Below are positions 43,850 through 56,483 of a stretch of 64,000 nt of DNA, in pieces. Source of the stretch: Salinibacterium amurskyense (lineage in GTDB: Bacteria > Actinomycetota > Actinomycetes > Actinomycetales > Microbacteriaceae); contig NZ_PGFH01000001.1 of the NCBI RefSeq assembly GCF_002797685.1, positions 372,001 to 436,000 on the forward strand. Reading direction: 5' to 3'. The notes under the pieces are model-generated. The model saw only the letters and a list, made by a program, of their open reading frames with translations, was not told where the DNA came from and did not search any database. Position 1 is the first letter of the stretch. The number at the start of each line of letters is the position of its first letter. The translations under genes were made by a program, and so were the position numbers.

Positions 43850-45883
43850 TCACCAGCCCGGGTAGGGGCCCGGGTTGGGGGCGGCATCCCAACCAAGGGT
43901 TTCGCGAGCCTCAGCTAGGCGGCCGAACGGATCGAGCGGAAAAGCTGCGGGTTGTAAGCGTGCGAACCCGGGGATGATGGCTCGCACAGCGTGAAAGCCT
44001 GCCGTCTTCACTCGGTCGGTTGCGACATCCACGGTGATAAGGGTGCTTGCGACGGCGGCGGTGACCGAGGTCGGTGCGGCCGGTGGTGTCGTGGAGCTGG
44101 CGGAATCGGGGGCAGCGCTGCCGGCAGTTGGCGACAAGCCCTGATGCGGTTGCGGACGGGGTTGCCTGCGCGGTTGAGTGCGTTGACGGGCGTGCTCGAT
44201 GACAGCGGGATCGAGGCCGTACTGCACGTGCGCCATCGGATCGATGAGGCCGCGATGTTTCGGGCCAAAAGCGTGAGCGTAGCGACGCTGGGGGTCCCAC
44301 GAAACAAGGCCAGCAATCGCTCCGTTGCCGAGCGCGGCGGAGTCGCGAATGAGGCTGTTCTCCTGCGCAAGATCCTGTGCGGAAGCGTGCTGAATGAGCG
44401 CTTCCACGATGGCGAGTTCGCTCGCGGTGTCGTCGTCGGTGTGTGCCGCGAACCCGAGCGAGAGGATGGTGTTGTTCACGTCATCCACCACGGCGAGACG
44501 CACGGGAATGCCCGTGGTCGACGGGATGGCGAGGATGCGAACCTTCAGTTCGGACTCCGCGAAAACGGTCGCGACCGATTGCGGTAGTGGAACCGCGCTC
44601 GCGGCTGCGGTCGATGACCACCACACCGCCACGGCATCGTGGGCTACGGCATGGGCGGCGGCTCGTTCGACGGCATCGGCCAGAGTGCGCCCGGCCTGTT
44701 GCCCCACCAGGTTGTTGGCGTTCGTGGCGAGCGCTGAGGTGCGACTGCCGCGCAAGTAGTCGGCGAACACGAGACTCTGCGGCACCCAGATGTCACCTGC
44801 CGCATCCTGGCCCCGAACCCAATCGATGCGCGTATCGGCGCGCAGTTCGACGAAAGGGAATCCGGCCAACGCGTGCAAGGCCGGATCGTGGGGCTGCCAC
44901 GCCGCGAGCTCGAAAGCTCGCTCATCGGTCTGCTGCAGTTCAGTGAGCGAAGCGCGCGTGCGGACGCCCTGCTCAAGGTCGGCCCCGCAATAGTGGGCGA
45001 TACCCGAGAGCAACGCGGGCTCGAGCAACTGTGGCTCAGAGCGCGAGCCATCGTCGAGAGCTCCGGCGGGAGCCAGAGCATCCGGAGTGAACGTGGCCTT
45101 GACGCTCCGCAAGTGCGGCAACTCGGCGTGCAGATGAACGAATCCGGTCGGCAGTGGTGCGAGATTGGTGCGTCGTCGTACCCGATGCAGGATGCCGGTC
45201 ACCGGGTCAACGAGGGGCGACGGGGTGAGCGCGTGGCTGGCCCAGCGGCCGTTGCTCCAGCGCTCGAGTATCCCGTGGCGGGGCGCGAGGGTGGAGTCGT
45301 CGTTGAGGTCACCAGCGGCAACGTGGGTGGCGGGGGAAGTCGTGACTGCCGGCTGCATCAAGGCGGATGCCGTGGCTGGGTCAGCGATAGTCGCCGCGAG
45401 GCAGTCCGTCGCAAACTGGGCAGTGCCGACGGCGCTCCCCGCTTCGAGCAGCAGTCGATGCCAGTGCCCCGCGAAGGGGAAGAGAACGCCGAGCGACATC
45501 GTGGGCTCATCACTGTCGCCGTCATCGGCGCCGCAGTCACAGGGGCAGCCGCCGGCACTGTTGTCGAGAAGCCGAGCGAGGCCGAGCATTTCCTGCGCCG
45601 AATCGAACCGAACGTCGTGAGGCGATACTCGTGGAAGCGGCGTCGGCTGCACGGTGGCACGAAGTCGCTCCCGAATGTCGGCGGTCACCGCGCTCGCCGC
45701 CACCGCAAGGTGCCACAACTGGCCATCGCTCCCCACCGCAATGCACGATTCTGCAGCGAGAGGCACGAGCGCGACTCGCTGCTCGGTCGCCGGCCCGGCG
45801 GCAGCGACCGTCGTCGCCACCGCTGCGTCCACTGTGTTCGCAGCGTTCACGAAGTCGTCCGTACCCTGCGTCGCCTCCGTCAT
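43850..45883 (-). CDS. YcaO-like protein lacking the ATP-binding residues (pseudo-YcaO partner)
   Basis: A 677-residue protein colinear with the preceding YcaO cyclodehydratase: both have a DPVTGILxR-type segment, then YCG, FPFVxxxAD..I.WV.G, an I.VP.S.VF stretch, the AVxWW helix end, and a C-terminal AVRxIIPG..PAAFP. Where the active copy has SxxxExxxR (its S375, E379, R383), this one has P289, S293 and H297; the second Glu-rich helix is also lost. It should not bind ATP in the usual way. A CPCDC cluster at 113-117 may bind metal. Its ATG overlaps the upstream stop (TAATG), so the two are made together and may form a heterodimer. Role inferred: scaffold or substrate binding. Confidence 0.75.
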   Translation of the reverse strand: MTEATQGTDDFVNAANTVDAAVATTVAAAGPATEQRVALVPLAAESCIAVGSDGQLWHLAVAASAVTADIRERLRATVQPTPLPRVSPHDVRFDSAQEMLGLARLLDNSAGGCPCDCGADDGDSDEPTMSLGVLFPFAGHWHRLLLEAGSAVGTAQFATDCLAATIADPATASALMQPAVTTSPATHVAAGDLNDDSTLAPRHGILERWSNGRWASHALTPSPLVDPVTGILHRVRRRTNLAPLPTGFVHLHAELPHLRSVKATFTPDALAPAGALDDGSRSEPQLLEPALLSGIAHYCGADLEQGVRTRASLTELQQTDERAFELAAWQPHDPALHALAGFPFVELRADTRIDWVRGQDAAGDIWVPQSLVFADYLRGSRTSALATNANNLVGQQAGRTLADAVERAAAHAVAHDAVAVWWSSTAAASAVPLPQSVATVFAESELKVRILAIPSTTGIPVRLAVVDDVNNTILSLGFAAHTDDDTASELAIVEALIQHASAQDLAQENSLIRDSAALGNGAIAGLVSWDPQRRYAHAFGPKHRGLIDPMAHVQYGLDPAVIEHARQRTQPRRQPRPQPHQGLSPTAGSAAPDSASSTTPPAAPTSVTAAVASTLITVDVATDRVKTAGFHAVRAIIPGFARLQPAAFPLDPFGRLAEARETLGWDAAPNPGPYPGW

Positions 45884-48174
45884 TACGCGTGCGGCAGCGG
45901 GAAGTAGTTGAGGTCTGCCTCGGCGAGTGGAGTGTCACGCCATCCGAGTTCCACCGCGAGATCTTGCACGCGACGCTTGCCCAAGAACGGGAAGGCGGCG
46001 GGCGCGTTACCCACGGTGCCGGGAACGATGACGCGCACTGCCGCCATGCCGGTGCTCGCGACATCCGCCGACGTAATGTCGACGATGATCACTTCGTGAC
46101 CCTGTGCTTCGATAGCGGCCTGATATCCGGCAACCGAACGATCGGGCAGCGCGGGGATGTCACCGATGGGGCGGCGAGCGGGGCGGTCGACGAGCGGTGC
46201 CACGTGGTCGACCGCACGGGGGTCCAGCAAGACTTGCTGCTGCACCATGAGGTCGTCGCAGTCGCGCATGTCGTCACGGTAGGAGTCGAGGTACGCGCGG
46301 TCGGCACGCCACGGCTTGAAGGAACGGCTGTTGAGCTCGCCGCGCGCCATCGCATCCCAGTGGGCGCCATCGGTGCGCAGCAGATCGCGGCTGCCCTCTT
46401 GCAGGGTGCACGCTTCGGTCCACGCCTTGAGCGCGGCAGCCTCAGCCGTGTTTCGGCAGGCGAAACCGACGTTCACGAGAGTGTCGACATCGTTGTGCAG
46501 GATGCCCGCCGCCACCGGAACGCCGAACTCGTTGTCGAGCATGACAACCGAGGGGCGCTGGCCGTAGGAGTCCGGAACGCCAGCCCAGAGAGCATCCATT
46601 TCGGGCGTCGGAACAATGGCGTCGTGCTGCTGTTCGTTGAGCCACCACACCATCGTGACGTGGCGTTCGATGATCTCCTCAAGCGCCGAGGCGACCGCGT
46701 ACTCCATGTTCGGCCCGGCTGCGATGCCAGCGAAGGGGCAGAAGTTGGTGACTGGGGCCGCCGAATATCCAGCCGTGAACCAGTTCACGTAAACCATGCT
46801 CGCGGGCACCAGAATGTCTTCGTTGGTCGTGAGCGAGCGACCGGGAACCCAGTGGATGGGCAGATCGGCCGTCATGCGCACGAACGGAAAACCAGGGGTG
46901 TCGTACTGCTCGTCGGAGTACAACACGAGTGAGTCAGGGTCGAGCATCCGCACCGCTGACTTTGCCGAGAGTTCGCGGTAGCTGCCGAAGGTGACCGGCA
47001 AAGTGTCGAGCAAATTACCGCAATAACGTTCGACCGCTTCGCCCACAGCACTGGCGGCAGCTTGCCCAGGATCGTTGAATGCCGAGCCCTGGCACGAGGT
47101 GTTGTTGGCCCAGCGCGAGACGCGGCGCATGTTGCAGACATCGCTCTGCGCGGTGGCGAGTGAGGCCGGGATGCTCGGGTGGTGAGTCACAGCGCGAGTG
47201 CGTTGCACGAGGCCAGTGACCGGATCGACGAGGTCGCTCACCGAGTGGGGCAACGAGTGTGAGATCACGCTCGCAGGTAGCGGGAGAACGGGGTGTTCCG
47301 TTGCGCCTGTGGTTGCGACTTCCCACACGAGGTCGCCGCGCCGTTCCGTGGCGTCGGCCACAGTGCGCGCGACTGTGGCGAATACCGCTGACAAGAGCTG
47401 AGGGTGTGCGCCGCTGTCACCGCCAACAGCGGGGGTGCGCAGAGCGCGGTGAGCAACTGGGTCGAAGGCGGCCGCAAGACGACGAGCGGCGAAGTCCTCA
47501 TAGTTGGCTCCCGTGCCGGGGCTCACGAACGGCCCAAGCCAGGCAACCGAGCGGGTGAGTTCGAGAGCGACCCACGGCGTGCGGGCATCAGAGCACAGGC
47601 GATCAAACGCAATGAGGGTCGCATCATCGCCACCCCGCAGGCAGTGCACGAGCAGTTCGCCCGTGCGGAACGCGCGGTGGATGACGCGCTGCCAGTCGTC
47701 GGCCGGAACAACACGAACTGCAGGTACCGAATCTGCGTCGGCAGCGCCGGCGGCAGTGCCGCGGAGATCGTCCATTGCAGCGACCAGGGCGGAGGCAACG
47801 GCGCGATCGCCCATGACGAGCAGGTCACCGGGCTGCGCGGTTGTGCCGTCGCTGTCGTCGAAAGCCACCTGATCGAACTGCGGGGCTGCGGCATCCGCAC
47901 CTTCGTCGCTGCTGCTGTCGGAGCTATCGCCGTGGGCACTCGCGAAGACATCCTCCGCGGTGAGCAGTTCGCGCAGTGCGGTCGCATTCGTCTCCCACTC
48001 GGCGGGCAACTTCGGCGAAATGGTGCCACTCGAGAGGGCCTCCACTAGGACGACAACGGTGTCTGCGGGGAGGTCGAGAGCGAAAGAGTTGCCACGCGGA
48101 GTCGTGAGGAGGGTGCGATCGCTGGGGAGCGCACGAATCTCGAGGTGAGGCGTGGTGGTGACGGTGCTGGGCAT
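45883..48174 (-). CDS. Fused E1-like/YcaO cyclodehydratase of a RiPP pathway
   Basis: A 763-residue protein, the size of cyanobactin fused C-D cyclodehydratases. Residues 1-250 look like the precursor-binding ocin-ThiF-like (E1-like) part, with a WLGPFVSPGTGANYEDFAARRLA region (212-234) resembling the GPLVxPGxxxCxxC..RR element without its zinc Cys. Residues about 315-745 are the YcaO domain with the ATP site S375-x3-E379-x3-R383 and the ExxER helix (500-504). It ends PLPHA, close to the Pro-rich tail typical of azoline-forming YcaO proteins. Such enzymes use ATP to turn Ser, Thr or Cys of a precursor peptide into azolines, though thioamide or amidine chemistry also occurs in the family. AGGAAGG precedes the start. 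Confidence 0.82.
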   Translation of the reverse strand: MPSTVTTTPHLEIRALPSDRTLLTTPRGNSFALDLPADTVVVLVEALSSGTISPKLPAEWETNATALRELLTAEDVFASAHGDSSDSSSDEGADAAAPQFDQVAFDDSDGTTAQPGDLLVMGDRAVASALVAAMDDLRGTAAGAADADSVPAVRVVPADDWQRVIHRAFRTGELLVHCLRGGDDATLIAFDRLCSDARTPWVALELTRSVAWLGPFVSPGTGANYEDFAARRLAAAFDPVAHRALRTPAVGGDSGAHPQLLSAVFATVARTVADATERRGDLVWEVATTGATEHPVLPLPASVISHSLPHSVSDLVDPVTGLVQRTRAVTHHPSIPASLATAQSDVCNMRRVSRWANNTSCQGSAFNDPGQAAASAVGEAVERYCGNLLDTLPVTFGSYRELSAKSAVRMLDPDSLVLYSDEQYDTPGFPFVRMTADLPIHWVPGRSLTTNEDILVPASMVYVNWFTAGYSAAPVTNFCPFAGIAAGPNMEYAVASALEEIIERHVTMVWWLNEQQHDAIVPTPEMDALWAGVPDSYGQRPSVVMLDNEFGVPVAAGILHNDVDTLVNVGFACRNTAEAAALKAWTEACTLQEGSRDLLRTDGAHWDAMARGELNSRSFKPWRADRAYLDSYRDDMRDCDDLMVQQQVLLDPRAVDHVAPLVDRPARRPIGDIPALPDRSVAGYQAAIEAQGHEVIIVDITSADVASTGMAAVRVIVPGTVGNAPAAFPFLGKRRVQDLAVELGWRDTPLAEADLNYFPLPHA

Positions 48175-48264
48175 GATGCCTTCCTGCGGGCGGGAGCGAG
48201 AACGAGAACGAGGGGAAGAAAGCTGAAGAGCAACCCCTGTGGAGGAGAAGAGGGGAGCATTTTC

Positions 48265-48295
48265 GGGTGCCCCGCCGCCGAGCAGCGGGGCACCC
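48265..48295 (-). terminator. Attenuator hairpin between precursor and modification genes
   Basis: GGGTGCCCCGC/GCGGGGCACCC, a perfect 11-bp stem with a 9-base loop, lies 18 bases after the precursor stop. There is no long T-tract. Such elements let precursor mRNA outnumber enzyme mRNA in RiPP operons. Confidence 0.7.
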
Positions 48296-48313
48296 TCTGT
48301 TAAACGCGGGGGC

Positions 48314-48424
48314 TTAGGCCCAAGCGAATGCGGTGGACACGTGTCCGTGGTTGTTCGCGTTCGGAGCGAGGATCTGGTCCTCGTTGCGCTCGGTGGCGAT
48401 CGGCGTAATGGCGATGGTCTGCAT
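48314..48424 (-). CDS. RiPP precursor peptide (36 residues, candidate)
   Basis: A short ORF of 36 codons, below normal gene-calling limits. A near-ideal AGGAGGTGA lies five bases before its ATG, and that same sequence encodes the last residues and stop of the exporter gene in front. Residues 1-21 (MQTIAITPIATERNEDQILA and Pro) look like a leader, with an Ile/Glu/Asp-rich stretch; the C-terminal 12 residues are NHGHVSTAFAWA. There is no Cys. The only Ser/Thr in the C-terminal half are S30 and T31, so at most two azolines could form, flanked by two His. It stands between exporter and cyclodehydratase genes and is followed by a hairpin, the classic place for a precursor. No similar peptide is known to me. 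The product is unproven. Confidence 0.8.
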   Translation of the reverse strand: MQTIAITPIATERNEDQILAPNANNHGHVSTAFAWA

Positions 48425-48429
48425 AGTTG

Positions 48430-50325
48430 TCACCTCCTCTCTGCGGTTGCGGCGGAACTCGACAGAACCGTCGAGTGGTCGGGGGATGCTGCGGCCGGGT
48501 GGCCGAGCAGCGATCGGTACTCTGGGCTCGACGCCAGCAACTCGCGGTGGCTGCCGTCGGCGACGATGCGCCCGTTCGCGAGCAGGACCACGCGCGGAGT
48601 GCGAGCGATCGTGGCGATGCGGTGGGCAATGACGACGGTGGTTGTGCCGGTGCGGCGACGAGCGATGGCGTCACCCACGGCGGCTTCGCTTACGGCATCC
48701 AAATGCGCAGAGGTTTCGTCGAGCACGAGCACGGCGGGGTCACGCAAGAAAGCCTGGGCGAGAGCAAGTCGTTGCCGCTGGCCTCCGGAGAGCGTCGCAC
48801 CAGCCTCACCGATCGTGTGATCGAGACCTTCAGGCCACGAGCGAATGGTGGAGCCGAGTGCCGCATCGTCGAGAGCCGTCCACAATTGGTGCTCAGTGGC
48901 ATCCGGATTCGCCAGCAGCAAGTTCGAGCGCACGCTGCCACGAAAGAGATACGGATGCTGGCCAACGATAAGGACGTCGTTGCGCACGTGTTCGCCGACG
49001 CGCGCTCGCAGCGGCACCCCATCGAGCAGGACGTCACCCTGAGTGGGATCCCAGAACCGTACGAGTAGCGCGCCCATGGTCGACTTTCCTGAACCGGAGG
49101 CGCCCACGATGGCCACGGTTTCGCCCGCGGTGATCTGAAGATCGATGCCGCTGAGTACAGGCTCGGTCGGGGTGTAGCCGAAGTGCACGTCGGCGAAAGT
49201 GATCGCGCCGGCAGCGCGCGAGCCATCAGCCGCGTGGGGGTCGTGGGCGCTGTCTGCTGCGGCACTGCCACTGGCAGCCGTATCGCCGCCGGCGCTGAAT
49301 CCAGTCGGATCCGCGACAACGCTCGGCGCCCTAATAACCTCCATAACACGTTCGGCCGCCGCCGACACATCGCCCAGCTTCTGAGCGACCGCGAAGATCG
49401 CAACGGCCGGCGCGAAGGTGGCGGCAGTCAGCACCAGCACCACGGGGAACAGTCCCGCAGCGAGCTCGCCCCCGGCGACGCGGTCGGCCTGCACGACCAA
49501 GGTGGTGATGGTCGTGACGGCGACAACGGCATCCGCCAACGCGGTTTCGATGCCCGAGCGCAGCGCAAAGGACCGCTTGCGGCGCTGCAATCGACGAGTG
49601 GCGGTGCGCACTTCGTCTACGTGGCGAGCGCTCAGCCCGAGGGCGAGAATCTCGCGAAGGCTCTCGGCGCCCTCGAACGAGATGGCAGTGAGGCGACCCA
49701 ATTCGGAGCGAACGGCCCGGCCTTGGCGAGCCTGAAGCGAAGCAAAGAGCCAGGGGATCGAGACGAGCGCGAGCGCGCCGGCGAGCGCGATGAACCCCGT
49801 GGGCCCCACAAGAACAACGAGCGTCGTGGTGACAACGAGCGGCCCCACCACGGCATTCGCGGCAGAGCCGAGCGTGTGTGCGTAAAACCATTCGAGGGCT
49901 TCCACGTCGGCCATTGCGGAGCCCGCGACCTCGCCTGCCCGGCGTCGTTTCATGCCTGCGGGAGTGATGCGTTCGATGGCGTCGTGCACTTTCAGCCGCA
50001 GCGTTTCGATCACCCGGTACGCGAGCACGTGACTCAACCACGACTCAACCCAGGTGAAGAGGCCGTTCGCGATTACCGCGATCACGAGGCCGATCGCGAG
50101 CACCGCGACGATTCCGGAACCGAGGTCAACGTCGGTTGATTGCGTCGTCACGGCGGCGGCAAGTCCGACGCTAAGTGCGCCCGTGGCGGCGGCGAACAAC
50201 TGAAACGCCGTCATGCTCAGGGTCGACCGCAGCAAGAGCATCCGCTGTGATTCCAATACCGAGAGCAGTTGGATAATCGGGCCGAGCAACCGCACCGGCG
50301 TCGAGTTCAGCAACACAAGTTTCAT
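48430..50325 (-). CDS. ABC exporter subunit 2 (fused membrane and ATPase domains, CydC-like)
   Basis: A 631-residue half-exporter. Six helices lie in about residues 30-320, and the ATPase shows Walker A GASGSGKST, Q-loop VGQHPYLFRG, signature LSGGQRQR and Walker B VLVLDETSAHLD. No C39 peptidase domain is present, so it does not cleave leaders itself. The linker before the ATPase is Ala/Gly/Asp-rich. Its start overlaps the end of subunit 1 by four bases (ATGA), making a heterodimer likely. It lies just upstream of the precursor gene and probably exports the mature peptide. It resembles CydCD thiol exporters, but no cytochrome bd genes are nearby. Confidence 0.88.
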   Translation of the reverse strand: MKLVLLNSTPVRLLGPIIQLLSVLESQRMLLLRSTLSMTAFQLFAAATGALSVGLAAAVTTQSTDVDLGSGIVAVLAIGLVIAVIANGLFTWVESWLSHVLAYRVIETLRLKVHDAIERITPAGMKRRRAGEVAGSAMADVEALEWFYAHTLGSAANAVVGPLVVTTTLVVLVGPTGFIALAGALALVSIPWLFASLQARQGRAVRSELGRLTAISFEGAESLREILALGLSARHVDEVRTATRRLQRRKRSFALRSGIETALADAVVAVTTITTLVVQADRVAGGELAAGLFPVVLVLTAATFAPAVAIFAVAQKLGDVSAAAERVMEVIRAPSVVADPTGFSAGGDTAASGSAAADSAHDPHAADGSRAAGAITFADVHFGYTPTEPVLSGIDLQITAGETVAIVGASGSGKSTMGALLVRFWDPTQGDVLLDGVPLRARVGEHVRNDVLIVGQHPYLFRGSVRSNLLLANPDATEHQLWTALDDAALGSTIRSWPEGLDHTIGEAGATLSGGQRQRLALAQAFLRDPAVLVLDETSAHLDAVSEAAVGDAIARRRTGTTTVVIAHRIATIARTPRVVLLANGRIVADGSHRELLASSPEYRSLLGHPAAASPDHSTVLSSSAATAERR

Positions 50326-52124
50326 GCCAGAACCCCCGAGGTTTGCGCGGCGTGCAACCGCGTGAGCACGCCGTCGCGGGCGATCAGGTCGTCATATGTT
50401 CCCGATTCGGCGAGGCATCCGTTCTCGAAAACGAGCACGAGGTCGGCGCTGCGGATGGGGGCAAGCCGGTGAGCAATAACGATCACGGTGCGAGCGGAAC
50501 CGTCTGCCCGGCGGGTCTCACGCAGTCGCTCAAGAATCGCGTTTTCGCGGCGAGCATCGAGTGCGCTGGAGGCTTCGTCGAGCAACAGGATGGGGCTGTC
50601 GCGCAGGAGCGCGCGAGTGATCGCGAGGCGTTGGCGTTGACCGCCCGAGAGCAGCCCGCCGTTGTCACCGACCGGTGCATCAAGCCCACTACGGCTGGGG
50701 TCGAGCAGCTCTTCGGCACCCGCATCGAAGAGCGCGCGGGAGAGATCGCTATCGCTCGCCCCGGGGGCGACGAGCTGCAGGTTGTGGCGGATGCTGCCCG
50801 TGAAGAGAACCGGATCTTGCGCGACGAGCGACACGAGCGGCGAGCATCCTTCGTGCCCGAGGAGTGCTGTGGATGCTCCTGCGATGACGAGCTCACCCGT
50901 CGTGGGTTGCGCAAAACCGAGCATCGCTGAGGCGAAGGTCGACTTGCCCGAGCCGGACTCTCCGACGATCGCGACCGTGGACCCTGTAGGGATAGTGAAG
51001 TTGAGGTTGTGCAGCGCATCGCTGTCGGCGCCAGGGTAGCGAAAGCTGAGACTGTCAGCGCGTACGGCAATGTCGGAGTGGTGAGCTGCCGGATGTGGTG
51101 AGGTGAGGCCGTGAGGTGCGGCTGCTGTCACGCCGGTCGCAGTCGCAGCCCCGCCGGCCGCACCGCTACCGGCATGCTCGGCATTCGTGAGCAGCGCGGA
51201 AATCCGGTTGCCCGCCGAGACTCCGGCGTAGCCCGCGTGCCAGTACTGCGAGAGGTCGCGGAACGGCCGGAACACCTCGAACGACAGCATCGTCACGAGA
51301 AAGAGGCTGGTGGGGGCGAGCTCACCACTGCTGACGCGGGCGGCGCCCACGAGCAGGGCGACGGCCGGGCCGGCAACGAGAAAGAAGCTTGTAAGGCCCG
51401 ATTCAACCAGAGAGAGCTTCAACTGCGAGAGCGTCGCGGTGAGCAGCGAGTCTCCGGCTGCCGAGAGCTGCTGGCGGCGAAGGTGCACAGCGCCGAGCGC
51501 TTTGAGAGTGGGCATCCCGCGGATTGAATCCACGACATCCGCGTGCAACGACGAGTAGGCGGCCCAGTGCTGTTCGCCGCGTCCGGCGAGGGCGGCATCC
51601 CAGAAGCGCGGGATGAAGGGCACGGCCAGCGCTATGGCGCCGACCACGATTCCGACTACAGGGTCGATCATGATCAGCGCCGCGACGAGTGACCCTCCGG
51701 TGACGAAGGTCACCACGAGCTGCGGGAGGTAGCGGCCAAAGTAAGGTTCCAAGTTTTCAACCGCGTCGACGAGAAGCGATTGCCGTTCTCCGCTGCGAGA
51801 AGTGCTGCTCGCGAGCGGGCCCGCGGTAATTTCAGCGGTGAGGATGCGGCTGCGTAATTGCACTTTGATGCGGCCGGCGACAGCGTGCACGGTGAGTTCG
51901 CGTGCCATCGAGAGCACCGGGCGTACGAGTAGCGCGCCCGTAAAAACGATGGTCGCGACAGTGAGGCTTTCCAGCGCTGCGCCGGTGACGATGCCCGTAA
52001 AAAGCGCAGCGGTAGCGATGGCTTGAGCGATGGCGACAGCACTGAGGGCGATGCCAGCGAGCACGATGGCGCTCAGCAGTGCGGTGGCTGTTCCGGCGAG
52101 CCGGAGTAGGCGGAAGTGGATCAC
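50322..52124 (-). CDS. ABC exporter subunit 1 (fused membrane and ATPase domains, CydD-like)
   Basis: A 600-residue half-exporter and the first gene of the minus-strand operon. The membrane domain (about 10-300, with DVVDSIRGMPTLKALGAVHLR as the coupling region) is followed by an ATPase: Walker A GESGSGKST, Q-loop VAQDPVLFTG, signature LSGGQRQR, Walker B ILLLDEASSALD and the switch His in VIAHRL. It pairs with subunit 2. The promoter lies in the 77-bp gap with the FecBCD-type genes, over a Fur/Zur-like palindrome. Confidence 0.88.
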   Translation of the reverse strand: MIHFRLLRLAGTATALLSAIVLAGIALSAVAIAQAIATAALFTGIVTGAALESLTVATIVFTGALLVRPVLSMARELTVHAVAGRIKVQLRSRILTAEITAGPLASSTSRSGERQSLLVDAVENLEPYFGRYLPQLVVTFVTGGSLVAALIMIDPVVGIVVGAIALAVPFIPRFWDAALAGRGEQHWAAYSSLHADVVDSIRGMPTLKALGAVHLRRQQLSAAGDSLLTATLSQLKLSLVESGLTSFFLVAGPAVALLVGAARVSSGELAPTSLFLVTMLSFEVFRPFRDLSQYWHAGYAGVSAGNRISALLTNAEHAGSGAAGGAATATGVTAAAPHGLTSPHPAAHHSDIAVRADSLSFRYPGADSDALHNLNFTIPTGSTVAIVGESGSGKSTFASAMLGFAQPTTGELVIAGASTALLGHEGCSPLVSLVAQDPVLFTGSIRHNLQLVAPGASDSDLSRALFDAGAEELLDPSRSGLDAPVGDNGGLLSGGQRQRLAITRALLRDSPILLLDEASSALDARRENAILERLRETRRADGSARTVIVIAHRLAPIRSADLVLVFENGCLAESGTYDDLIARDGVLTRLHAAQTSGVLA

Positions 52125-52152
52125 GGGACCTCGGTCTAATTTGACTTAATAA

Positions 52153-52167
52153 TGAGAATCGTTATCA
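52153..52167. promoter_or_regulatory. Fur/Zur-type metal box between the RiPP operon and the FecBCD importer
   Basis: TGAGAAT-C-GTTATCA is a 7-1-7 imperfect palindrome that fits the Fur-superfamily core TGATAAT-C-ATTATCA and the actinobacterial Zur core TGAAAAT-N-ATTTTCA about equally well. It is set in AT-rich flanks (CTTAAT and ATTAAG). It lies in the 77-bp gap between two divergent start codons, so one bound regulator would control both operons. Whether it senses iron, zinc or another metal cannot be told. Confidence 0.65.
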
Positions 52168-52201
52168 ATTAAGTATCACAGTCCCCCAACGAAACGAAAC
52201 C

Positions 52202-53356
52202 GTGACAGCAATAGTGCGAACCCCGCGTGGCGCCTCCACCGCTCCGGCTGCCCCGGAAACAGCGGGCATCTCGACGCCGGTCGGCGTTCCTCTATCGCCT
52301 CAAGAAAAATCCGACCCGGGCCGATCGCCACGCCGGGTCCTTCGTCGCGGAGGCGCGTGGATCGCTGCATTGAGCGTCATCCTTCTGGCCTCAGCGATCG
52401 TGACCGTCGGCATCGGGCCCGTTGCGATCAGCCCCGACATCGTCACCCGCGTGATCGCCTTTCACGCTTTTGGCATCGGTGAGCAAACTCCCGGATCCGA
52501 CGACAACATCGTCTGGCTCATCCGCGTTCCCCGCGTTGTACTGGGAATCCTCGTCGGCGCCGCCCTCGCGATGACGGGCGTCGCGGTGCAATCGCTCGTG
52601 CGGAACCCGCTCGCCGACCCGTACCTCTTGGGAATCTCATCCGGCGCATCCACGGGCGCAGCCGCCAGCATTCTGTTCGGATTCGGTGCGGGTGCCGGCG
52701 CTCTCGCCTTGACCGGCAGCGCGTTCCTCGGTGCTGCGGCCGCCATCGTTCTCGTGTTCTCGATCGCCCGTCTCGGCGGTCGCCTCATCCCGACCCGACT
52801 CGTGTTCGCCGGCATCGCAGTGAGTTTCGCCCTCGCAGCCCTCACCAATTTCTTGGTGTTCGCGAGCGACTCCCGCGACGGCACGCGAGCGGTGCTGTTC
52901 TGGATGCTCGGCTCGCTCGGTCAGGCCCGCTGGCAGTCACTGCCGATCGCCCTGGCCGGAGTCGCGATCGCCGCGTTTTTCTTGATGCTGTGGTCGCGAA
53001 AGCTCGACGCGATCGCCATCGGCGACGACACAGCGCGCGCCCTTGGCACCAACCCCACCCGCTTTCGAGCGGTCGCGGCGTTGATCGTCAGCGTCGCGAT
53101 AGCTGCCGCTGTGTCGGTATCGGGAGCAATCGGTTTCGTCGGACTGGTGGTCCCTCACCTCGCACGACGCCTCGTTGGCTCGACCCATCGAGTGTCGTTG
53201 CCTGTCGCCGGTCTGCTCGGCGGAATCCTGCTGATTTGGGCTGACGCTCTCGCTCGCACCGCTTTTGCTCCGCGAGAGCTCCCGCTCGGGGTGCTCACCG
53301 CTCTCATCGGCACACCGCTCTTGATCGCTCTCGTTCGTCGGCTCAATGCCCGCTAA
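52202..53356 (+). CDS. FecCD-family ABC permease (metal chelate/siderophore import)
   Basis: A 384-residue permease of the BtuC/FecD family with about ten helices. The LIRVPRVVLGILVGAALAMTGVAVQSLVRNPLADPYLLGISSGAS region carries the family signature, as does SGAIGFVGLVVPHLARRLVGSTHR. A polar N-terminal extension of about 55 residues precedes the first helix, so a later start is possible. GTG 52202 is the first in-frame start. It moves siderophores, heme, cobalamin or similar metal complexes in known members. Confidence 0.9.
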   Translation: MTAIVRTPRGASTAPAAPETAGISTPVGVPLSPQEKSDPGRSPRRVLRRGGAWIAALSVILLASAIVTVGIGPVAISPDIVTRVIAFHAFGIGEQTPGSDDNIVWLIRVPRVVLGILVGAALAMTGVAVQSLVRNPLADPYLLGISSGASTGAAASILFGFGAGAGALALTGSAFLGAAAAIVLVFSIARLGGRLIPTRLVFAGIAVSFALAALTNFLVFASDSRDGTRAVLFWMLGSLGQARWQSLPIALAGVAIAAFFLMLWSRKLDAIAIGDDTARALGTNPTRFRAVAALIVSVAIAAAVSVSGAIGFVGLVVPHLARRLVGSTHRVSLPVAGLLGGILLIWADALARTAFAPRELPLGVLTALIGTPLLIALVRRLNAR

Positions 53357-53432
53357 CTCGGTGTCGAGAAACCGCTTTATCCACCTTGGTCATCCGACCG
53401 AAGAACCACCCCAACAAGAAAGAAAACCCCTG

Positions 53433-54449
53433 ATGGATCACACAATAACCCGACGTAATGTGGCGCGACTGCCGCTGATTTCTCTTGCAACCGCAGCACT
53501 CCTCTTGGGGGTTGCCGGTTGCGCAACCTCCAGCGCCAGCGAGACGGATGACGAGTCCGCGACCAGCGCGGGCTACCCAGTTTCCATCGACAACTGTGGC
53601 GCTGACCTCAGCATTGAGAGCGAACCGCAGAGCGTCCTGACCATCGGCACATCAGCACTCTCTCTGCTTGACGCTGCCGGGGCAGCCGACCGCATTGTTG
53701 CCCGCTCGGGCGAGTTTGGCGCAGCGCTTCCTGAGGGAATGTCGGTCGACCTCTCTGGCGTCGAGATCGTTGACCCGTCTGACCCGACCACCGAAAAAAT
53801 CGTCGGAGCGAACGCCGATGTCGTCGTCGGTTACGGACTCTTCAACTCCACGGATGAAGACCTTGCCGCCTCCGGAATCACCAACATCGTGATCGACGGC
53901 GAATGCAGCCATGACGCTGCCCTCACCGACTCGACCGACTTTGAGGCCATCTTTGCCGACATCGAACGCTTTGGCACTGTCTTCGACACGAGCGATGTTG
54001 CGGCCGAAAACGTTGCCGCGCTGCAGGCCGAACTTGATGAGCTCGAAGCGGATGCCAGTGCAGCAGCAGACAAGTCTGCGGCTGTTATCTACTACTTCTC
54101 GCCCGCATCCAGCCTGTCTGCACGCGGTGGTCAAGGCATCGCGAACGACATTCTGGCGCGCGCGGGAATGAGCAACGTGTACGCGGCCGAGCCTTCGGTG
54201 TACCTCGAAACGAACATCGAAACGCTGCTGGATGCTGACCCCGAGGTCATCGTGATTGCCTACGGCCTCTACGGCGAAGACTTCGACACCGCGAAGGCAC
54301 TGTTCTCTGCGGAGCCAGGAACCAGCGACCTCACCGCCGTCAAGAATGGCGCCATCATCGGCGTTCTGGCCTCAGATCTGGCTCCTGATCCCGATGCCAT
54401 TCGCGGGCTGCGCACCGTCATCGACAGCGCCGCAACTCTCTCCGAATGA
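53433..54449 (+). CDS. FecB-like substrate-binding lipoprotein for a metal chelate
   Basis: A 338-residue lipoprotein (lipobox GVAGCA). The mature part fits the two-lobed TroA/FecB fold: SVLTIGTSALSLLDAAGAADRIVARSG, an ANADVVVGYG segment and a long inter-lobe helix around 180-215. Start 53433 is chosen because it begins a proper signal peptide; an upstream ATG at 53346 would add a polar stretch. It should capture the metal complex outside the cell. Nothing in the sequence names the ligand. Confidence 0.87.
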   Translation: MDHTITRRNVARLPLISLATAALLLGVAGCATSSASETDDESATSAGYPVSIDNCGADLSIESEPQSVLTIGTSALSLLDAAGAADRIVARSGEFGAALPEGMSVDLSGVEIVDPSDPTTEKIVGANADVVVGYGLFNSTDEDLAASGITNIVIDGECSHDAALTDSTDFEAIFADIERFGTVFDTSDVAAENVAALQAELDELEADASAAADKSAAVIYYFSPASSLSARGGQGIANDILARAGMSNVYAAEPSVYLETNIETLLDADPEVIVIAYGLYGEDFDTAKALFSAEPGTSDLTAVKNGAIIGVLASDLAPDPDAIRGLRTVIDSAATLSE

Positions 54450-55201
54450 TCACTGTCGGCGACCTGTCCGTGAAGTACGGGCAGGTCGCCGCCGTGGCGG
54501 GAGTCTCCCTCTCGGCGCTGGACGGTGGAACCCTGGGGCTCATTGGCCCCAACGGTTCCGGCAAGTCCACGGTGCTGCGTGCAATTTTGGGGGCTCTCGA
54601 TTCTGCGGCGGGAACGATCATGATCGATGAGGATGACGCCCGCGCCCTGACCGCTCGCGAGCGGTCACGACGGTTGGCGATCGTCGCTCAGGAGGAACCT
54701 TCGGGGCTACCGCTCACGGCGTGGGACTCGGTGATCCTCGGGCGATCGGTGCATGTCTCGGGGTGGCAGAGCTACCGCGATGAAGACGAGCGTGCCGCCG
54801 AACAAGCAATGGTCGACACGGGCACGCTGCACTTGCGCGACCGCTCCATGGACGAGCTCTCGGGTGGTGAACGTCAACGCGTTCTCATCGCGCGTGCGCT
54901 CGCTCAGGCGGCCTCTCACCTGCTGCTCGACGAGCCCACCAATCACCTCGATGTGCGGTACCAACACGAACTGCTCACGGTCGTAGCGGGGCTTCCCCTC
55001 TGCACCGTCGTGGTGCTGCACGACCTCAACCTGGCGGCGCGTTACTGTGATCAACTCGTGCTGCTCGATGGCGGCACTGTCGTTGCCGCGGGTGACCCGG
55101 CGTCCGTCTTGACGCCCGAAAACCTTGAGCCGGTCTACGGCATCGACGTCACCCGCACTGACCTCGACGGGGTACCCCAGCTGCTGTTCACCCCGCGCTA
55201 G
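54446..55201 (+). CDS. FecE-like ABC ATPase
   Basis: A 251-residue ATPase of the siderophore/heme/cobalamin family. Walker A GPNGSGKST, Q-loop VAQEEPSGLPLTAWDSV, signature LSGGERQR, Walker B LLLDEPTNHLD and the switch region VVLHDLNLAARYCD are all present. It overlaps the receptor gene by ATGA and completes the importer. Confidence 0.93.
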   Translation: MITVGDLSVKYGQVAAVAGVSLSALDGGTLGLIGPNGSGKSTVLRAILGALDSAAGTIMIDEDDARALTARERSRRLAIVAQEEPSGLPLTAWDSVILGRSVHVSGWQSYRDEDERAAEQAMVDTGTLHLRDRSMDELSGGERQRVLIARALAQAASHLLLDEPTNHLDVRYQHELLTVVAGLPLCTVVVLHDLNLAARYCDQLVLLDGGTVVAAGDPASVLTPENLEPVYGIDVTRTDLDGVPQLLFTPR

Positions 55202-55283: not shown

Positions 55284-55769
55284 ATGATCCCCCGCAGCGC
55301 AGAACGACCTCATCATCGGGTCGACGCTGCGCCCGCACAGCGCGTGAGCAACTCCTTTTCGCGCGTACTGCGAGCGTCGTGGCAGCTCGTTGCGATGACG
55401 TTCCTCGCGCTGGCGCTCATCACTGGCATCGTGGCGATGCATTCGCTCGTGTCGTCCGGCTCGCATTCCGAAATGACGATGGCGGCCACGATGTCTATGG
55501 GCGACGGCGCCGCAACGGAAGCAGCGCCGGCTGGCGCCACTCTTAATGCGCTCGATTGTTCCGGATGCGGGGGCGAGGCATCCATGGTTCTCATGTGGTG
55601 TGTGCTCGCGCTCTTCACCGTTGCGCTCCTTCTGGCGGCGCCCGCCCTGATTCGAGGCTGGGGCCGCTTCCTTGAGCAGCGGTCGTGTGTCACTGCATCC
55701 GTCACCCGGTGGGCCCGCGCTGTCGCCCCGCGCCCCGATCTCAGCACTCTCTGCATTAGTCGCACCTAG
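55284..55769 (+). CDS. Small Met/His-containing membrane protein (DUF6153-like)
   Basis: A 161-residue protein with two hydrophobic helices, LVAMTFLALALITGIVAM and SMVLMWCVLALFTVALLLAAPAL. The loop between them is rich in Met, His and Ser (MHS, SGSHSEMTMAATMSMGD) and has a CSGC motif, an arrangement typical of metal-binding loops. It resembles DUF6153-type actinobacterial proteins, whose function is not known. A copper-handling role with the following DUF305 gene is possible. It has its own leaderless promoter. Confidence 0.65.
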   Translation: MIPRSAERPHHRVDAAPAQRVSNSFSRVLRASWQLVAMTFLALALITGIVAMHSLVSSGSHSEMTMAATMSMGDGAATEAAPAGATLNALDCSGCGGEASMVLMWCVLALFTVALLLAAPALIRGWGRFLEQRSCVTASVTRWARAVAPRPDLSTLCISRT

Positions 55770-55856
55770 GAAGAGCTCTGTCGACTCAGCGTCGACGCGC
55801 CCTTGCGTGACCGTTCTGGCCACGCTCCTACTGACGACTTATTGGAGAACCTCAAG

Positions 55857-56483
55857 ATGAATACTCGTGCGACGGCTACGGCCGCAATCGCCCTGACGGC
55901 GCTATTGACGCTGTCAGGATGTGTCAACGGAATGACCGACGTGGGGCACCGCTCCGACTCGTCATCCACCAACGCGGCCGCCGCCGCTGACGCCAACATG
56001 ACCGATGTGATGTTCACGGCGATGATGATTCCCCATCACGAGCAGGCTGTAGAGATGGCAGACATGGTGCTCGCTAAGGAAGGAATCGACGATCGCGTCG
56101 TTACGCTCGCCGAAGATATCAAGGCCGCGCAAGGCCCCGAGATTGACCTCATGAGTGGCTGGCTCGATGACTGGGGCATCGACATGGGCGACGGCATGGG
56201 CGAGATGAGCGGCCTAGATGGCATGGACGGCGTAGATGGCATGGGCCATGGCGACGGGATGATGAGCGAATCCGACATGGATGAGCTCAACGAGGCCAGC
56301 GGGGATGAGGCCTCTCGCTTGTTCCTCGAGCAGATGATCGTGCACCACGAGGGTGCGATCGACATGGCAGAACGCGAGTTGGATTCCGGCCAGAACGCGG
56401 ACGTTCTTGAGCTCGCTCAAGCAATCATGGACGCGCAGACGATCGAGATCGCGCTCATGCGCGACATTCTTAGTTCCCTGTAG
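55857..56483 (+). CDS. DUF305 family lipoprotein
   Basis: A 208-residue lipoprotein (lipobox TLSGC). The DUF305 four-helix fold is evident in MMIPHHEQAVEMADMVL near residue 60 and IVHHEGAIDMAERELDSG in the second half. A Met/Gly/Asp-rich stretch (GDGMGEMSGLDGMDG) between them is unusually long and may bind metal. DUF305 genes are often near copper-resistance genes. The start at 55857 gives a clean signal peptide. GGAG lies about ten bases upstream. Confidence 0.85.
   Translation: MNTRATATAAIALTALLTLSGCVNGMTDVGHRSDSSSTNAAAAADANMTDVMFTAMMIPHHEQAVEMADMVLAKEGIDDRVVTLAEDIKAAQGPEIDLMSGWLDDWGIDMGDGMGEMSGLDGMDGVDGMGHGDGMMSESDMDELNEASGDEASRLFLEQMIVHHEGAIDMAERELDSGQNADVLELAQAIMDAQTIEIALMRDILSSL

Follow-up and report, generated by a model that had tools for sequence, protein, structure and literature searches.

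We analysed a 64,000-nucleotide stretch of the 2.78-Mb Salinibacterium amurskyense genome (contig NZ_PGFH01000001.1, positions 372,001 to 436,000; the whole stretch is hereafter the window) that holds a gene cluster proposed, in an earlier note made from the sequence alone, to produce a metal-controlled, YcaO-modified peptide. One minus-strand operon was read from the sequence, comprising a pair of ATP-binding cassette (ABC) transporter subunits, a 36-aa precursor, a fused E1-like/YcaO enzyme (Y1) and a YcaO partner (Y2). An importer consisting of a FecCD permease, a FecB-type binding protein and an ATPase was located on the plus strand (52202-55201), divergent from the operon across 77 bp (52125-52201). 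Protein families were assigned with Pfam and NCBIfam profile scans, which agreed for the cluster genes. The operon parts, the 36-residue precursor, the divergent FecBCD importer and the 77-bp gap were all recovered from the sequence and these scans where the earlier note had placed them.

Modifying enzymes, precursor and transporters

Y1 (763 aa, 45883-48174), a fused E1-like/leader-binding and YcaO cyclodehydratase ending in PLPHA, scored 247.5 bits against TIGR03604 (cut-off 219.25) and matched the YcaO family at E = 1.2e-52; its E1-like part was weak by profile (TIGR03882, E = 2.4e-5, under its cut-off). In profile comparisons Y1 matched TruD, LynD and MusD, all of them fused heterocyclases (E = 8.5e-24 to 1.4e-29), and the same three enzymes were the top Foldseek matches of a full-length model of moderate quality (mean predicted local distance difference test score, pLDDT, 71.4). 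Six Glu/Arg positions, E379, E382, R383, E500, E503 and R504, which we take to have an ATP/Mg role, were invariant in Y1 and its orthologues (n = 14). All six were substituted in Y2 (677 aa, 43850-45883; PF02624, E = 7.3e-22), in keeping with its earlier description as a degenerate YcaO. The C-terminus of Y2 reads PYPGW, and P[YWF]PGW was found in the window and 12/13 relatives of the same layout, the remaining reading (L057) being misframed and set aside. From these substitutions, Y2 is probably a non-catalytic partner of Y1.

The precursor gene (48314-48424) was preceded by a ribosome-binding site and its product contains LAPN-A-N-N-H-G-H-V-S-T-A-F-A-W. It was present in 13/13 uncut window-type relatives, and the 14 window-type precursors followed the pattern leader-LAPN-[AS]-[NH]-[NH]-H-[GA]-H-[VT]-[SAT]-T-[ASV]-F-[AS]-W. 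LAPN, F33 and W35 were invariant across 17 aligned precursors (the 14 window-type sequences and three outer relatives). With no Cys in any of the 14 window-type precursors and a single invariant Thr, extensive azole formation would be unexpected; for a metal ligand, the Asn/His run would be the obvious candidate. A strong stem-loop (48265-48295, minus strand; -32.9 kcal/mol, z = -5.75) separated the precursor from Y1, and hairpins also followed the precursor in 7/7 relatives folded (z = -2.64 to -4.77); it is probably a partial terminator or an mRNA stabiliser. The ribosome-binding site, the conservation and the hairpin 3' of the gene together bear out the call of such a short open reading frame as a real gene.

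The two ABC subunits, a putative exporter, were CydD-like (50322-52124; TIGR02857, E = 6.8e-103) and CydC-like (48430-50325; TIGR02868, E = 7.9e-88), both under the curated cut-offs. The importer comprised a FecCD-type permease with a GTG start (52202-53356; PF01032, E = 2.7e-89), a FecB-type substrate-binding lipoprotein (53346-54449; PF01497, E = 1.6e-19) and an ATPase (54446-55201; PF00005, E = 2e-29; closest NCBIfam model TIGR03873, under cut-off). The binding protein belongs to PF01497 and not to the ZnuA family, which suggests a chelate, not a bare ion, as its ligand. Among 14 binding-protein orthologues, the lipobox Cys, C84, C187 and H189 were invariant and E186 occurred in at least 90%. 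Its predicted model (mean pLDDT 79.7) matched heme, siderophore and B12 binders, the nearest being 5cr9 and 4mlz.

A predicted Zur box in the shared promoter

The 77-bp divergent promoter contained a predicted Zur box, TGAGAATCGTTATCA (52153-52167), which was the sole exact occurrence of TGANAANNNTTNTCA in the genome (control pattern, 0). Allowing up to one mismatch gave 19 genome sites versus 14 for the control, so most one-mismatch sites are due to chance, and within the window this loose pattern was unremarkable (1 found, 0.63 expected). Flanking genes were read for 14 of the 18 one-mismatch sites, giving one convincing partner directly before znuA (PF01297, E = 5.7e-50). This gene was followed by an ATPase gene, a ZnuB-type ABC-3 permease (E = 7.8e-46), a Fur-family gene and an L28 gene. 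The Fur-family gene (PF01475, E = 2.4e-26) occupies the position expected of zur behind znuACB, and the only other Fur-family protein over cut-off in the genome adjoins a catalase gene (PF00199, E = 1.7e-177). Beside a DtxR/MntR-like gene (named by eye) stood another ZnuA-family gene, C2, with no box site there at one mismatch or fewer.

The cluster and the znu genes of the same genome thus had a 7-1-7 / 10-1-10 Zur palindrome in common. A 21-bp Zur matrix was trained on 26 sites that precede znu, cobW or ribosomal-protein genes; no site from a peptide cluster was included. Since the patterns that first yielded these 26 sites had been modelled on the boxes of the clusters, the matrix and the boxes are not fully independent, and the independent evidence is therefore which genes the sites precede. 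The window box scored 33.6 and the next-best place in the 64 kb 11.6; in 321 simulated loci the largest score per locus had a 99% point of 17.1 and a maximum of 19.7. Iron control through a DtxR/IdeR-type site was rejected, as none occurred in the window at up to three mismatches from the consensus. The Fur/Zur-type palindrome of the earlier note is thereby confirmed and sharpened to Zur, which points to zinc, not iron, as the controlling metal. Zur control of the cluster is very probable.

The same box marked zinc genes in related genomes. We searched ten Microbacteriaceae genomes that carry YcaO clusters for the pattern TGANAAYNRTTNTCA and obtained 28 sites (control 0); 7 lay at the clusters and the other 21 outside them. 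Fifteen of the 21 preceded ZnuA, ZnuCB, zinc-free L36 or CobW-type genes, all Pfam-confirmed; of the other six, one preceded an additional FecCD gene, three secreted proteases and two secreted propeller-like proteins. Exact sites were also searched for in 12 window-type genomes (that of L051 not among them), where 22 were found in 7 genomes (control 0). The 18 that were read, with Pfam applied to ten genes and the rest named by likeness, preceded ZnuA (6), CobW (4, one with L36 and one with L28 alongside), ZnuB (1), the cluster's own FecCD (2), propellers (2) and other genes (3; L228, L229 and L047:21917). These targets match the actinobacterial Zur regulon as described, in the parts of the sources available to us, for Leifsonia, Streptomyces and Mycobacterium (PMC2823685, PMC6103462). 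Scored with the matrix, 10 of the fecC-abcD promoters of the 13 window-type relatives exceeded 17.1, and in 11 the promoter was the best place in its own locus.

Some box-bearing genes lay outside the clusters. Two genomes (L146 in G343, L152 in G238) had a second FecCD permease, identified by Pfam, with its own Zur box; the 6 kb read there contained no peptide genes, and this permease could take up zinc chelates made by other organisms. Zur-type boxes before secreted S8/kumamolisin-like proteases (L148, L154, L159) and secreted propeller-like proteins (L156, L158, L216, L224) mark these genes as candidate new members of the zinc response.

Occurrence of the cluster, its importer and its box

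A Y1 relative (E ≤ 1e-30) was found in 11/398 Microbacteriaceae genomes, this one included, and in 0/9 congeners searched. We examined the best 80 of 406 YcaO relatives by named scan, among which 13 from 11 genera (L047-L053, L055-L060) had the window layout, with fecA-fecB-fecC divergent from abcD-abcC-precursor-Y1-Y2. This was every uncut member of the clade (13/13). A FastTree phylogeny of 107 YcaO domains placed the window, these 13 relatives and two loci cut by a contig end (L054, L062) in one starred set of 16 rows; among the relatives in the tree, the closest YcaO domain was that of Brachybacterium tyrofermentans (79%). The scattered genera and the absence from congeners suggest that the cluster spread by horizontal transfer.

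Importer and enzymes occurred together in 14/14 window-type loci, the window included, and in L041 (genus g35) the importer lay downstream of the YcaO genes in a single co-directional run. Across the 80 loci, FecCD was found within 9 kb in 49, full flanks lacked an importer in 19, and 12 were cut by contig ends; a site above 17.1 occurred anywhere in the locus in 25/49, 1/19 and 2/12 of these, respectively. A chance link between YcaO and FecBCD was rejected, since the importer was present in 9/10 distant survey loci and 13/13 clade members, and in 0/12 VVHNR-type loci (9 with full flanks). The earlier note had named YcaO genes without the importer as evidence that would count against it: the association held for the window and all uncut clade members, whereas the 19 full-flank relatives without importer show that it does not extend to every related enzyme. 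Ten further no-importer loci were grouped by importer absence, so only their lack of a box counts as a result, and L054, L061, L062, L067-L069, L074, L102, L104 and L118 were ungrouped and enter only the plain 80-locus count.

Several other branches and loci were set apart by their content. A Streptomyces/Amycolatopsis fused-YcaO branch (L091, L092, L094-L101, L103, L105) carried precursors of repeated AVVHNR units, obtained for 11/12 loci (L091 excepted), with neither importer nor box found in the branch, and is a separate peptide type. YcaO genes with [LI]APN-x-NHH-type precursors occurred in L070, L074, L075, L079 and L080 (records titled Chloroflexales/Chloroflexota, Holophagae, Acanthopleuribacter and Acidobacteriota), with the importer in 1/5 (L074) and two of the other four cut by contig ends. 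Mobilicoccus massiliensis (L054, L055) had identical YcaO domains twice on one contig and genome G478 three near-identical copies, reflecting either duplication or an assembly effect. L083, from a record titled Tissierella, fell in the Actinomycetaceae-type branch with a YcaO nearly identical to that of Varibaculum cambriense, through contamination, mislabelling or recent transfer. Beyond the window importer lay genes for a 161-aa small membrane protein (55284-55769) and a CopM-family metallochaperone (55803-56483; NF049983, 101.5 bits, cut-off 90). Both were rejected as cluster parts, having no match at E < 1e-8 in the 80 relatives; the latter is, on that ground, probably an unrelated copper gene.

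Relation to known systems and a proposed role in zinc acquisition

The closest published counterpart is streptamidine (ami), a RiPP (ribosomally synthesised and post-translationally modified peptide) family of more than 230 clusters, with FecBCDE genes in its main subset (Russell et al. 2021, PMC8442711). According to the parts of that paper available here, the importer genes amiF1-F4 are required for production, deletion of amiT1-T2 cut output substantially, and no antibacterial or antifungal activity appeared in the published assays; metal import was proposed, with no role established (PMC8442711). Like streptamidine, the window has a YcaO enzyme, a short Ser/Thr/Cys-poor precursor, a FecBCDE-type importer and two ABC subunits. 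Homologues of this ABC pair, the amiT1-T2 counterpart, were found in L044 and L045, whose precursors read HLSA[ST]HSNALVENPFD; HLSATH is the streptamidine core (PMC8442711). The window differs in that Y1 is a 763-aa fusion rather than a standalone YcaO, that its precursor lacks the ALV of motifs A and B and has LAPN/NHxH/FxW instead, and that it has a degenerate second YcaO and no hydrolase (amiC) or dehydrogenase (amiE). Neither was found among the cluster genes by the family scans, as the earlier note had held of dehydrogenase and protease, and S15 or SagB-like matches at E < 1e-10 were absent from 13/13 window-type relatives. The published survey covered standalone YcaO only, included 22 members with neither motif, and its main text contains 'Zur' 0 times (PMC8442711).

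Most of the scanned streptamidine-type loci carried the same Zur box as the window. An automatic scan found precursor promoters above 17.1 in 11/17 motif-A (streptamidine-type), 7/7 motif-B and 4/7 further loci, versus 0/1402 control windows from 16 loci without importer; no precursor was obtained for 2/19 motif-A and 13/20 group-C loci. The automatic start codon was too far upstream for L203, where a box lies at -89 from a shorter start, and for L208, whose best match in the locus (18.4) sits immediately 5' of the shorter start. As most of the scanned streptamidine-type promoters had the box, we propose zinc control for the family. The window cluster is thus a fused-YcaO form of a published kind of gene cluster, and the new part is the proposed zinc control of the family. 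No link between YcaO peptides and Zur or zincophores was found in the open-access literature searched, nor anything on the product of a window-type cluster; PMC11278768, as far as available, concerns unrelated opine zincophores.

The mobilisins, a predicted thiazole/oxazole-modified microcin (TOMM) family of Mobiluncus and other Actinobacteria (Cox et al. 2015, PMC4603692), likewise pair a fused C-D cyclodehydratase with a low-Cys/Ser/Thr precursor. They were described with a dehydrogenase (B protein), unlike the window cluster, and the available parts of PMC4603692 do not mention an importer, exporter or regulation. Mobiluncus mulieris (L077) fell in the branch next to the window clade, and the predicted mobilisins overlap the fused-YcaO branch. 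Coelibactin-type Zur-controlled metallophores are made without ribosomes, whereas the window product is ribosomal. Methanobactin is a ribosomal peptide chelator of copper made by enzymes other than YcaO; the window product would resemble it as a proposed ribosomal peptide chelator and differ in being YcaO-based and, by its regulation, zinc-directed. The predicted Zur control is a feature shared with coelibactin and other metallophores under Zur (PMC6103462, as far as available).

We propose that the cluster acquires zinc by producing, exporting and re-importing a ribosomal peptide under Zur control, a reading to which we give a probability of about 0.58. When zinc is scarce, Zur would leave the shared 77-bp promoter, and precursor, enzymes, exporter and importer would then be made together, the precursor presumably in excess because a hairpin follows its gene. 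Y1, aided by the degenerate Y2, would recognise the leader and cyclise, at the expense of ATP, a single backbone amide within the short core, as its fold and the case of streptamidine, with its six-membered amidine, suggest. The cluster encodes no protease; a host peptidase may cleave off the leader, or the YcaO enzyme itself may do so, an activity reported for MusD in the title of its structure entry (7u58). The product would exit through the CydDC-like ABC pair and bind zinc outside the cell; it probably bears an azoline or amidine and includes the conserved Asn/His run. Judging from the importer family and the co-regulation, the PF01497 lipoprotein would then bind the zinc-peptide complex, and FecCD with the ATPase would carry it into the cell. 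The odds that the peptide chelates zinc are, in our estimate, slightly better than even. Of the metallophore interpretation in the earlier note, the metal-controlled promoter stood, in the form of Zur; export, re-import and metallophore identity fit the observations and are inferred.

A number of results weigh against this reading. Streptamidine bound 0/7 metals, including Zn, and an amiD mutant had no metal-starvation phenotype in the available account (PMC8442711); the assays may have missed binding by using the free small product, or the zinc-binding form may differ. The exact Zur site was absent from 5/12 window-type genomes, partly because the cluster boxes there deviate from the pattern, and the promoter box was weak in L051 (14.5) and L056 (10.9) and absent in L057 (1.1). 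In the Actinomycetaceae-type branch (Varibaculum, Mobiluncus), 11/11 loci had the importer and 0/11 the promoter box, the sole site at threshold (L081, 17.1) lying off the promoter, so another mode of regulation or an altered box would be at work there. Of the importer loci outside this branch, 13/38 lacked a site above 17.1. Acrocarpospora pleiomorpha (L123) had a box of 29.7 and no FecCD within 9 kb, and Mycetocola lacteus had Y1, a second YcaO and a precursor, and lacked importer, ABC pair and box. A tree-based test of joint change of importer and box was not significant, owing to few independent events (three independent pairs on starred branches). As a separate observation, the L123 precursor was of the APHNHH type.

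The alternative that survives best, itself unlikely, is that zinc shortage induces a peptide that acts as bacteriocin or signal, next to an importer of free zinc or foreign chelates that is merely co-regulated by Zur. Linear azole-containing peptides are often antibacterial, FecCD genes bear the same box without peptide genes in the 6 kb around them (L146, L152), L123 has the box without the importer within 9 kb, and streptamidine bound no metal. However, streptamidine was inactive against bacteria and fungi in the published assays and needed amiF1-F4 for its production, and importer and enzymes kept company in all window-type loci and in the single run of L041. Still less probable is a metallophore that carries Fe, Cu, Ni or Co instead of zinc, despite the promoter box. 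Most FecBCD importers handle iron, heme or B12; the closest NCBIfam importer models here were a putative F420-0 transporter set, under cut-off, and a CeuE Ni-His structure was among the fold matches of the modelled binding protein. Yet the box marks zinc genes in the same genomes and the DtxR/IdeR-type site was missing from the window. ABC-exporter folds import siderophores in some bacteria, and the best profiles of the ABC pair were CydC/CydD, thiol reductant exporters. That the pair is a second importer or a CydDC-like thiol exporter, leaving the operon without peptide export, is nevertheless the least probable alternative, given the lower streptamidine output after amiT1-T2 deletion and the position of the pair between promoter and precursor in 13/13 relatives.

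Zinc control of the family would point to a ribosomal zincophore. We see about an even chance that the fused-YcaO and streptamidine-type clusters are branches of one class of Zur-controlled zincophores, spread over many actinobacterial genera as a zinc counterpart of methanobactin. The analysis adds a fused-YcaO branch with an Asn/His-run precursor that was outside the reach of a search for standalone YcaO. The evidence for a zinc switch at the promoter identifies the metal, the mutant (zur) and the growth condition with which the role of streptamidine-like peptides can be put to direct experiment. If the proposed zinc acquisition system is true, it would explain the purpose of the widespread streptamidine-type peptide family.

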